From Geothrix terrae (GTDB taxonomy: Bacteria; Acidobacteriota; Holophagae; Holophagales; Holophagaceae): 64,000 nt of DNA. Position numbers and translations under genes: made by a program. The notes under the pieces are model-generated. The model was not told the DNA's origin. It was given only the letters and a program-made list of their open reading frames with translations, and ran no database searches. The DNA is taken from positions 62,001 through 126,000 of the forward strand of contig NZ_JAKZLA010000004.1 in assembly GCF_022808775.1 (NCBI RefSeq), in the 5' to 3' direction. How positions within the stretch are numbered: position 1 is the first letter of the stretch; every line of letters begins with the position of its first letter. Of the stretch, positions 43,965-51,605 are shown piece by piece.

Positions 43965-44005
43965 GTCTCAGGGAACCTCATGGTCCACTCCATCCCGATC
44001 CAACC

Positions 44006-48378: not shown

Positions 48379-48523
48379 GGGCTCGAGCTCCTTGGAAAGA
48401 ATGGGTGAGAAACCCAGATTACGCCGAAGCAGACCTGAAGGTGGAGCATGAATGCGGCCGGCTCCGGATCCACCCGATGACCCAGCCTCCTCCGTCATGG
48501 CACAGTTCGGAGGGGGGCATCCC

Positions 48524-48958
48524 ATGAAGACCGTCATCCAGCGCGTGAAGCGGGCCTCGGTCCGGTGCGGAGCGCTGGAGGCCACCATCGGCCCCGGCCT
48601 CCTCGTCCTCACGGGTCTCGAGGCCGGGGACACGGAGGAGACCTGCGCCTGGGCCGCGGCCAAGATCGCCTCCCTGCGCGTCTTCGGCGACGCCGACGGG
48701 AAGATGAACCTCGGCCTCCAGGAGGTGGGCGGCGAGATCCTGGCCATCAGCCAGTTCACGCTGGCGGGGAGCATCGCGCGGGGCCGGCGCCCCTCCTTCG
48801 ATCAGGCCATGGCGCCGGAGGCGGCGCGGGTGCTCTTCCGCAGGTTCCTCGACCTGCTCAAGGCCCAGCATCCCCGCGTGAAGTCCGGCTTCTTCCAGGA
48901 GCACATGGAGGTGGAGCTGGTGAACGACGGGCCCGTGACCTTCATCCTTGAGCGGTGA
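48524..48958 (+). CDS. dtd: D-aminoacyl-tRNA deacylase
   Basis: Removes D-amino acids from tRNA. The 144 residues have MKTVIQRVKRASV, FGDADGKMNLGLQE, the SQFTLAG motif and the NxGPVT motif (NDGPVTFILE). The GGRRPSFDQAM segment is conserved. ATG at 48524 follows AGGGGGG. It is divergent from the S9 peptidase gene. Confidence 0.95.
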   Translation: MKTVIQRVKRASVRCGALEATIGPGLLVLTGLEAGDTEETCAWAAAKIASLRVFGDADGKMNLGLQEVGGEILAISQFTLAGSIARGRRPSFDQAMAPEAARVLFRRFLDLLKAQHPRVKSGFFQEHMEVELVNDGPVTFILER

Positions 48959-48983
48959 AGGGACGCAGCTGGATTCGCCACAG

Positions 48984-49769
48984 TCAATGCAAGAGGAAGT
49001 GGCCTTCCAGCACCTTCACGGCCCGGCCTCCGATCCGGACGCGATCCCCGGCAAGTTCGCAGGCCAGTTCTCCACCGCGGAGCGACGCCTGGAAGGCGCG
49101 CAGACGTGTCTTCCCCAGGCGCTCGGCCCAGTAGGGAATCAACGTGCAGTGGGCGCTGCCGGTGACGGGGTCCTCCGGCACCCCATCCCCGGGAAAGAAA
49201 CATCGGGAGACAAAATCGTAGGCCTGGCCGGGAGCTGTGATGAGCGTGCCCATGGCGGGAAGCGCCCTGAGGGCCTCGTAGTCAGGGCGCACCTCACGAA
49301 CCGCGGCTTCGTCATCCAGGACCACCATCGCATCCCGGGCGAGGCGCACCTCGCGGGGACGGACACCCAGGGCCTTCGCAAACGCATCCGCCAACTCAGG
49401 TGCGGGCCGGCCGGGACGGGACGGAAAGTCCAGGACCAGTTCCTCTCCCTCGCAGTTCACCGTCAAGGAACCGCTGCGGCTATGGAACGACACGCTTCTC
49501 GCCTCGGGTTCGAGTTCGTGGAGGATGAGCCAGGCGCTCGCCAGGGTGGCATGACCGCAGAGATCCACCTCAGAGACAGTGGTGAACCAACGGATACGCC
49601 ATCCTGTGGCTTCCTTCACCAGGAAGGCCGTCTCAGAAAGGTTGTTCTCCGCCGCGATGGACTGCATGAGGGCATCTGGCAACCAGCTATCCAGCGGCAT
49701 CACGGCCGCAGGGTTCCCCTCGAAGGGACGGGAGGCGAAGGCGTCGATCTGGTGCAGGGGCAGGCGCAT
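48984..49769 (-). CDS. PhzF family phenazine biosynthesis-like protein
   Basis: A 261-residue diaminopimelate-epimerase-fold protein, likely an isomerase of unknown substrate. LPLHQIDAFASRPFEGNPAAV is the family start, Glu in ENNLSETAFL is catalytic, and VDLCGHATLASAW and EDPVTGSAHCTLIPYW are typical. ATG at 49769 follows AGGAG; an upstream ATG at 49787 is less likely. Only a phenazine operon would make a phenazine role credible, and none is here. Confidence 0.9.
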   Translation of the reverse strand: MRLPLHQIDAFASRPFEGNPAAVMPLDSWLPDALMQSIAAENNLSETAFLVKEATGWRIRWFTTVSEVDLCGHATLASAWLILHELEPEARSVSFHSRSGSLTVNCEGEELVLDFPSRPGRPAPELADAFAKALGVRPREVRLARDAMVVLDDEAAVREVRPDYEALRALPAMGTLITAPGQAYDFVSRCFFPGDGVPEDPVTGSAHCTLIPYWAERLGKTRLRAFQASLRGGELACELAGDRVRIGGRAVKVLEGHFLLH

Positions 49770-49851
49770 GGGGGCTCCTGCCCACATGTTGGGCAGTCAG
49801 ACTCCGGATCGGAAGGGCCCCGCAGGCGGACCACAGACCGGGCGCTGAGGT

Positions 49852-50730
49852 TCATTCCGAATCGGTGAAAAGGCCGGTGGCGGCTCCCATCCAGCGCGAC
49901 AGCGGAGCGGCCAAGGCCAGGGTGATTCCCGCCAGCAGGAGGCCCGCGGCCACATCCACCACGTAGTGGACGCCGATGTAGACCGTGGCGAAGACCACGG
50001 CCAGAGCCCAGACCCAAAGCAGCGGCGCCAACCTGGGGAAGGGACGCGTCGTCAGCAGGGCCGGCAGCACCGAAAGGGCCGTGTGGCCGCTGGGGAAGGC
50101 GTCCAGGGTGGTGGATTCGGCCCCGTGGAGGAAGGCCCGGACCGCTTGGGAGACGGCGCCGCCGCCCAGCTTCGCCGCCGCGAGCGCTTCAGGCACCCGC
50201 GGCCCCTCCGCAGGCCACAGGAAGTACCCCAGGAAGGACAGGTAGAAGCCCAGGAGGATCCGGAAGGCGGTCCGCTCGAAGGCCTCGGGCCCGAGGCGGA
50301 GCCGTGCGAGAACCGCCGCGGTGATGGGCAGGAAGTAGAAGCTGGCGTAGGCGAGGTAGATCAGGTCCGTGAAGGCCGCGGGCCGGCCGAAGGCGCCGTG
50401 CCAGGCCGCGGCGAGCTGGCCGAACCAGCGGGCGTCGGCGGCGGCGAGCGCCGTATCCCAGCGGTGGGTGTTGACCGCCACCACCAGCGGCTGGAGGAGC
50501 AGGAACACCAGGAGCACCACCAGGATCGGCAGGAAGTCGCGCAGCACTGCGCCCGCCCTCCCCTTCGCCCGGCCCACCAGCAGGACGGCCAGGAGCAGCC
50601 CCGCGAACGTGGCGCCACGGGAGATGCCCCCTTCGGGCCGCGCCAACACGATGAGCAGCAGCAGGCCCGCCAGGACCAGGGCCGTCAGCCGCTCGGAGGG
50701 CCGTAGGCTCGCGACAGTCGCGGCGATCAT
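49852..50730 (-). CDS. PAP2 family membrane phosphatase-like protein
   Basis: A 292-residue protein with about seven membrane helices. The PAP2 motifs are visible: FPSGHTALSV (central Ser-Gly-His) and HYVVDVAAG (catalytic His/Asp). The preceding KxxxxxxRP-like box is weak (GYFLWPAEGPRVPEAL instead), which fits the inositolphosphotransferase-type PAP2_3 branch. Substrates may be lipid phosphates or a lipid headgroup. ATG at 50730 overlaps the upstream acyltransferase-like gene by 4 nt, implying linked function. Confidence 0.85.
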   Translation of the reverse strand: MIAATVASLRPSERLTALVLAGLLLLIVLARPEGGISRGATFAGLLLAVLLVGRAKGRAGAVLRDFLPILVVLLVFLLLQPLVVAVNTHRWDTALAAADARWFGQLAAAWHGAFGRPAAFTDLIYLAYASFYFLPITAAVLARLRLGPEAFERTAFRILLGFYLSFLGYFLWPAEGPRVPEALAAAKLGGGAVSQAVRAFLHGAESTTLDAFPSGHTALSVLPALLTTRPFPRLAPLLWVWALAVVFATVYIGVHYVVDVAAGLLLAGITLALAAPLSRWMGAATGLFTDSE

Positions 50731-51605
50731 GGCTTGTGCGCGTCCGCTTCCAGGCCCTTCCACTGGGGCGTCCCCTCCGGCGGGCCCAGCCACCGCGCGG
50801 GGTCCTCGAGGATCTGCGACACCAGCGCCAGGGAGCGGGCGCAGGAGAAGGCGTCGTCGATGCGCTCGTCGAAGGTCCAGCGCACGGACAGCGCCTCTTC
50901 CGACGTCACCCCGTCCCGGGCGGCGAAGACCGCGCGCCGGGGCGCGGAGACGGCCCCGAAGATGGAGACGGTGCCGTACTCGTAGAGGTGGTGGAACACG
51001 TCGGAGACGCCCACGGAACCCAGATTGGCCAGGAAGATCGTCGCGTACATGGGGTCGTCGCGGATCATGAAGCCCGGGAAGAGGTTCCAGCGGTCCAGCC
51101 CCCGCGCGAGGGCCACCAGCCCGCGCACCAGCGGGCCGGGCAGCCGCATGATCAGCGCCACTTCCTTGTCCACGGCGCAGTCCTTGTCCCGGGCCTCGTC
51201 CACCCGGATCGAGATGCGCCGGGAGAAGTCCGGAAAGCTCTCGCCCTTGGGGCACGCCAGCTTCACCGTGACATCGGCCCCGTCGTCCGTGAACTCCCGC
51301 TTGGCCACGAAGGAGATGGACACGCCCCGGCGCTGGTAGGTCCGTCCGCCCGAGACGAACCGGTTCAGGCGCGGGCGGGTCTCGAGCGCCACCGCGGTGG
51401 CGTAGGCCACCAGGTGGAAGAGCGTGGCGCGGGGATGGTGGGTGCGGTTGTAGGCCTTGAGCCAGACGCGCGCGGCCGCGATGCGGTAGACGGATTCCTG
51501 GTAGACGCAGCTCTCGTTCCGGCCCCGCATGAGGTAGGGCATGATGCGCCGCACAGGATCCTCGCCGCGGATCAGATCACCATCGGGACGGGAGAAGAGG
51601 GGCAT
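50727..51605 (-). CDS. E2-like (2-oxoacid dehydrogenase) acyltransferase domain protein with altered catalytic motif
   Basis: A 292-residue protein covering only the catalytic domain of E2/chloramphenicol-acetyltransferase fold; no lipoyl or peripheral-binding domain. YQESVYRIAAARVWLKAYN and FHLVAYATAVALETRPRLNRF match the early fold, NLGSVGVSDVFHHLYEYGTVSIFGAV the later core. The active-site motif DHRxxDG reads DERIDDA: Glu replaces catalytic His and Ala replaces Gly. It is therefore probably not a normal acetyltransferase. Coupled by overlap to the PAP2 gene; a lipid-related or structural job is only inference. Confidence 0.75.
   Translation of the reverse strand: MPLFSRPDGDLIRGEDPVRRIMPYLMRGRNESCVYQESVYRIAAARVWLKAYNRTHHPRATLFHLVAYATAVALETRPRLNRFVSGGRTYQRRGVSISFVAKREFTDDGADVTVKLACPKGESFPDFSRRISIRVDEARDKDCAVDKEVALIMRLPGPLVRGLVALARGLDRWNLFPGFMIRDDPMYATIFLANLGSVGVSDVFHHLYEYGTVSIFGAVSAPRRAVFAARDGVTSEEALSVRWTFDERIDDAFSCARSLALVSQILEDPARWLGPPEGTPQWKGLEADAHKP

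Follow-up and report, generated by a model that had tools for sequence, protein, structure and literature searches.

We describe a variant of the E2/CAT fold, namely a large, unnamed family of standalone proteins in which the active site has been rewired. The His of the DHRxxDG motif is a textbook catalytic residue of this fold. The family, carried by 122 of the 282 genomes sampled in one phylum, has consistently given up this His and gained an invariant His pair elsewhere. It is probably catalytic and linked to lipids, and an inactive ligand-binding protein is a serious rival reading. The member studied here comes from Geothrix terrae and is encoded in a stretch of 64,000 nucleotides (the window), where its gene is followed by that of a membrane protein of the PAP2 type.

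The E2-like gene is located on the minus strand at positions 50727–51605 and encodes 292 amino acids. Its assignment to the E2/CAT fold relies on Pfam and on an AlphaFold model. The 2-oxoacid_dh model (PF00198) scores 40.1 bits (cut-off 23) with the best match over residues 187–273, and it was the sole match in the Pfam scan; neither lipoyl and peripheral subunit-binding domains nor the WS/DGAT catalytic domain (PF03007) were detected in the protein. The preliminary description, which had proposed a catalytic fold without a lipoyl domain, is thus confirmed in this point. As the generic PF00198 model alone catches the family, it also hides it. No E1- or E3-like reading frames were recognised by inspection between positions 44000 and 58000 of the window. 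One ordinary E2 besides the E2-like gene is encoded separately in the same genome, on contig 11. A WS/DGAT search of the genome gave no match, and its controls were without any match as well.

The AlphaFold model has a pLDDT of 81.3 and a pTM of 0.84, with values below 50 for residues 195–207. It is matched by E2 cores, with 3l60 as the best (Z 19.8, rmsd 2.8, 197 aligned residues), and by CAT (1cia: Z 17.1, rmsd 3.1, 204 aligned residues, about 10% identity). The protein shares with the E2 catalytic domain the fold and the D-x-R-x-x-D frame with its flanking Asp and Arg, but differs by the missing lipoyl and subunit-binding domains, Glu in place of His, Ala (in most of the family) in place of Ser/Thr, a new HHxxE motif, a hydrophobic insertion and the lack of E1 and E3 genes alongside. 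With type A CAT it shares the fold and the standalone size, at an identity of only about 10%; natural CAT keeps its His (PMC12549896). The insertion comprises about 40 residues (approximately 142–185, positions 51050–51180) and contains a hydrophobic LPxxL helix. It is common to the Glu-bearing family and to a set of His-bearing standalone relatives and is absent from true E2. This helix could touch membranes.

E247: The segment FDERIDDA corresponds to residues 245–252. Its DERIDDA part (residues 246–252, positions 50850–50870, minus strand) takes the place of DHRxxDG, with Glu247 at the position of the catalytic His, as the preliminary description had noted. We aligned 150 family members, 121 from the phylum of genome G352 (the genome of locus L048) and 29 from other sources; a partial member (G924) and a second copy of the L048 gene (L089) were left out of the counts. 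Position 247 is Glu in 149 members and Asp in one. The exception is a planctomycete protein (L047:6001-6906) with the motif VDDRVADG. The flanking Arg248 is invariant (150/150), and Asp246 is kept in 144 members and replaced by Glu in the other six. Position 251 is Asp in 141 members, His in eight and Thr in one. At position 252, Gly is found in 126 members and Ala in 24. The preliminary description had asked whether Glu and Ala are conserved in homologues: this applies to the Glu, while the Ala is lineage-specific; the change from Gly to Ala is a clade trait, most relatives having DERxxDG, and needs no special explanation. Nor does the term "mutated" active site fit, as the swap goes back to the origin of a large family and is accompanied by an invariant His205-His206 pair.

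H205, H206 and E209: The HHLYE segment (residues 205–209, positions 50979–50993, minus strand) brings in two new His residues, each present in 150/150 members, followed by an acidic residue at position 209 (Glu in 143, Asp in six, Asn in one). In the model, HHxxE is predicted to lie in a short helix (residues 202–209) that places His205 and Glu209 one turn apart, in a segment that is partly below a pLDDT of 50.

A193: Ala193 (positions 51027–51029, minus strand) is found at the place of the oxyanion Ser/Thr of E2. Ala is present in 147 of the 150 members, Ser in two and Thr in one. Three further Kribbellaceae members, which were obtained after these statistics and are not counted in them, keep Glu247, His205 and His206 but have Ser193, as do all four Kribbellaceae; in one Kribbella relative, position 209 is Gln.

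The His-bearing standalone proteins form a sister set of 17 sequences (12 rows singled out when the family was aligned, and five low-scoring rows of the profile search in the G352 phylum). They resemble the Glu-bearing family in fold, in the insertion and in the lack of a lipoyl domain, but show the opposite states at the active site: His247, Thr/Ser193, Ala/Val205 and Pro206 in 17/17 each, and no HHxxE. Only 22 columns are at least 95% conserved in the Glu-bearing family. Among them, columns 205, 206, 209, 211, 216 and 247 have practically no residue in common with the sister set, and columns 83, 148 and 193 almost none. In a tree of 97 rows, a chosen subset, the two groups were split with a support of 100/100. 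Hence, a number of residues where the active site is expected have changed jointly and have since remained fixed. An Acidobacteriota standalone E2-like reading frame (L021:1501-2388) has the motif DTRVLNA, which perhaps marks an independent event in which the catalytic His was lost.

Known structures allow the position of the new residues to be estimated. In E2, these catalytic residues meet deep in an interface channel, to which one subunit contributes the His and Asp of DHRxxDG and the next one the Ser, and D-H-R is stated to be conserved in all E2 sequences (PMC8421416). In CAT, the substrate pocket is lined by the residues that follow the catalytic Ser at distances of 12, 14 and 16; they belong to the same protomer as this Ser and face the His of the neighbour (PMC12549896). 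Assuming no gap, His205 and Glu209 follow position 193 by 12 and 16 residues. As this spacing matches the CAT pocket positions, it suggests that HHxxE faces Glu247' of the next subunit across the interface. In the profile alignment to a solved E2, the HHxxE segment is placed against the FTPVIN stretch with one gap. The preliminary description had considered that a nearby His might replace the lost one; two invariant His residues do map to the opposite wall of the pocket, a placement obtained by sequence mapping.

Substitutions in E. coli E2o help to judge these changes. With the catalytic His replaced, about 59% activity was retained for Trp, about 13% for Gly and about 2% for Ala, and the oxyanion Thr to Ala variant retained 45%, as given in PMC5986005. 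Hence, the loss of His and Ser/Thr alone need not mean inactivity. As the His is not strictly needed in E2o, however, Glu247 could also be tolerated without being a base. The nearest biochemical precedent is an engineered CAT in which the catalytic His was replaced in order to examine Glu as a general base (1cia; cited in PMC5986005 and PMC12549896). The family may serve as a natural test of whether Glu can stand in for His in the E2/CAT fold, as the engineered CAT suggested, or else of how an enzyme fold is repurposed.

Our main reading, to which we assign a probability of roughly 40%, is that the E2-like protein is still an enzyme. The preliminary description had considered a non-acyltransferase role, which may also apply. 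The enzyme would form trimers whose substrate pocket is located between the subunits, with Glu247' acting as the general base or orienting the nucleophile. The new HHxxE is probably presented on the pocket wall by the neighbouring subunit, and His205 and His206 may assume some of the proton transfer or of the oxyanion stabilisation. An acyl group would be moved to or from a lipid or another amphiphilic acceptor, and in Geothrix the co-translated partner, an Aur1-like PAP2 protein, would make or use the same lipid. The near-invariant Glu247 with a single Asp, the invariant His205, His206 and Arg248, and the opposite states in the sister set argue for this reading, as do the full separation of the two groups in the tree, the low dN/dS, the fold matches to E2 and CAT, the CAT-like spacing of His205 and Glu209 and the lipid genes nearby in two lineages. 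The diverse and mostly non-lipid gene neighbours in the G352 phylum (M28 peptidase, AraC, HAD, WD40/RCC1) argue against it, as do the low pLDDT at residues 195–207, the dispensability of the His in E2o and the absence of the gene pair from 29/47 genomes of the genus.

Two other ways of using the pocket have to be weighed. A conserved pseudoenzyme would have kept the pocket for a ligand (CoA, acyl-CoA or a lipid) without acyl transfer and would serve as a sensor, a carrier or a scaffold for PAP2. E3BP is part of a dehydrogenase core and contains lipoyl and E3-binding domains. Mammalian E3BP (PDHX) provides the precedent as an inactive relative of E2, an E2 core that has lost the His and has no working catalytic site (PMC8626477); the Geothrix protein differs from it in being standalone, located beside lipid genes and devoid of lipoyl and E3-binding domains. 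The E3BP core 6h60 is among the structural matches of the model, and the complete loss of the catalytic His (150/150) together with the loss of the oxyanion Ser/Thr in 147/150 is what a pseudoenzyme would lead one to expect. The invariant ionisable residues His205, His206, Glu247 and Glu209 in the presumed pocket exceed the needs of a scaffold, however, and position 247 allows only the conservative exchange of Glu for Asp. We give this alternative a real, if minority, chance. The active site may also have acquired new chemistry, with HHxxE of one subunit and Glu247' of the next forming a site for metal binding or acid-base chemistry, such as that of a lipid hydrolase or thioesterase instead of a CoA acyltransferase. 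The near invariance of all four positions and the predicted helix, in which a single turn separates His205 from Glu209, are in line with such a site, but the stretch 195–207 is modelled at a pLDDT below 50, and a strict metal site would poorly tolerate the Asp, Asn and Gln found at position 209; we regard it as unlikely. We also consider it somewhat doubtful that this widespread bacterial family has rebuilt the E2/CAT site at the trimer interface so that His205, His206 and Glu209 of one subunit and Glu247' of the next make up a new catalytic, possibly metal-binding, centre that acts on lipids, with an Aur1-like PAP2 enzyme as its partner in Geothrix.

The idea that a normal E2-type acyltransferase has recently decayed in the Geothrix genome can be dismissed almost entirely. 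The only point in its favour is the departure of the motif from the textbook form. FDERIDDA is present in all 19 of 19 orthologues found in 77 family genomes, and Glu is kept throughout the wider family as described above, so the homologues have not retained a His that this copy has lost. For eight pairs, dN/dS is about 0.14–0.41 in the E2-like gene and 0.21–0.37 in the PAP2 gene, well below 1, and a normal E2 is encoded separately. Purifying selection and the joint change of residues indicate a rewired site and not a decaying one.

The partner gene occupies positions 49852–50730 on the minus strand (ATG at 50730, stop at 49852) and encodes 292 amino acids. Stop and start codons overlap as ATGA at positions 50727–50730, and the same overlap is present in 18/19 orthologues and at loci L034 and L020, which bears out the coupling noted in the preliminary description. 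The PAP2 domain was confirmed (PAP2_3, PF14378, 2.1e-21). AUR1 is the best PDB match of the partner profile (4.2e-6), and Aur1 is also the best fold match (Foldseek 1e-4) of a model with a pLDDT of 90, at 18–19% identity. The partner thus shares with Aur1 the PAP2_3 domain and the motifs PSGH (residues 213–216, positions 50083–50094) and HxxxD (residues 255–259, positions 49954–49968), both kept in 18/18 PAP2 orthologues, but is likened to it by fold and profile, not by close sequence identity.

A PAP2 orthologue is present in 18 of the 77 family genomes. All 18 are among the 19 genomes that encode the E2-like protein, and PAP2 never occurs without it; only one genome (G061) has the E2-like gene alone. 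The overlap persists down to 51–61% PAP2 identity (L020, L034). These findings make it quite improbable that the two genes are coupled by mere chance and to no functional end, although no PAP2 neighbour was found in the loci opened outside the Geothrix-like clade and the PAP2-bearing rows of the tree form one clade that includes three rows without PAP2 (L042, L043, L017). PAP2 as a general partner of the family is therefore rejected: the proposed fixed partnership holds within the Geothrix clade, and elsewhere other neighbours are found.

In the Kribbella family, 4/38 genomes carry the E2-like protein, and in all four the order on one strand is neutral ceramidase, E2-like protein, WS/DGAT. This order was established by Pfam for L049 and by tblastn for the other three (71–83% identity). 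The Kribbella WS/DGAT scores above the cut-off of TIGR02946. An ATGA overlap joins the stop codon of the E2-like gene to the next start codon in L049 and L236. Upstream of the ceramidase operon, L049 also encodes a second standalone E2-like protein (L049:2080-2883; PF00198, 64 bits) with the motif DHDIVDG; no counterpart was observed around the operon of the other three Kribbellaceae.

Since an Aur1-like PAP2 protein in Geothrix is joined by a ceramidase and WS/DGAT context in Kribbellaceae, a role of the E2-like family in lipids is likely, and it may act on lipids that resemble ceramide or diacylglycerol. The neighbours in these two lineages hint at an unrecorded step of bacterial lipid metabolism. 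Of the lipid or envelope setting suggested earlier, the lipid part has become likelier through the independent Kribbellaceae context (4/4 carriers). In the G352 phylum, however, no recurrent neighbour was found among 20 loci opened and no repeated lipid neighbour was seen, which weakens the claim. Ten neighbours were scanned (nine from this phylum, one from G565) and comprised two M28 peptidases, an AraC regulator, a HAD hydrolase, a WD40 protein, an RCC1/FGE-sulfatase protein, an HpnA-like epimerase (below cut-off) and three proteins without matches. Gene calling for neighbours was crude (longest reading frames weighted by GC3) and missed the focal gene in 5/33 loci.

Close relatives with names belong to Geothrix (up to 94% identity). 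The 19 orthologues comprise 18 from 47 genomes within the genus and one from 30 outside; the E2-like/PAP2 pair is missing in 29/47 genomes of the genus. A scan of genome contigs yielded 24 loci, with labels including Myxococcales, Gemmatimonadetes, Deltaproteobacteria, Planctomycetaceae and Kribbella; one of its two patterns was RWTFDERI, so these loci are biased to Glu, a bias from which the profile searches are free. In the G352 phylum, 126 of the 282 genomes had a profile match at 1e-30. The Glu-bearing family is present in 122 of them (a count that includes the partial G924 and G905), and four have only His-bearing relatives. The scores are either at least 240 bits or at most 114 bits, and L230, a truncated family member, falls into the low group. 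This phylum is probably Myxococcota, as the Myxococcota-labelled rows L045 and L046 branch among its members in the tree.

In the phylum of Kribbella, 10 of 296 genomes pass the 1e-10 threshold, of which eight have His-bearing relatives and two the family. In the window's own phylum outside the Geothrix family it is rare, with one clear case in 297 genomes (G309), which could be a binning error. No relatives were confirmed in viral contigs, and the literature searched, in which subscription papers were mostly beyond reach, contained no paper on the Glu-bearing family. Plasmid records gave one hit, from Clostridia: a Vescimonas replicon (L080:5004-5837) that encodes a distant member with 26–28% identity (28% in the plasmid search), annotated as hypothetical protein.

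Between an S9-peptidase-like gene and the PAP2 gene, the window contains reading frames that by inspection resemble D-aminoacyl-tRNA deacylase and PhzF (positions 48452–49787). In G. paludis (L026), the gap at this place is only 438 bases, so these reading frames were either gained in the window genome or lost in G. paludis.
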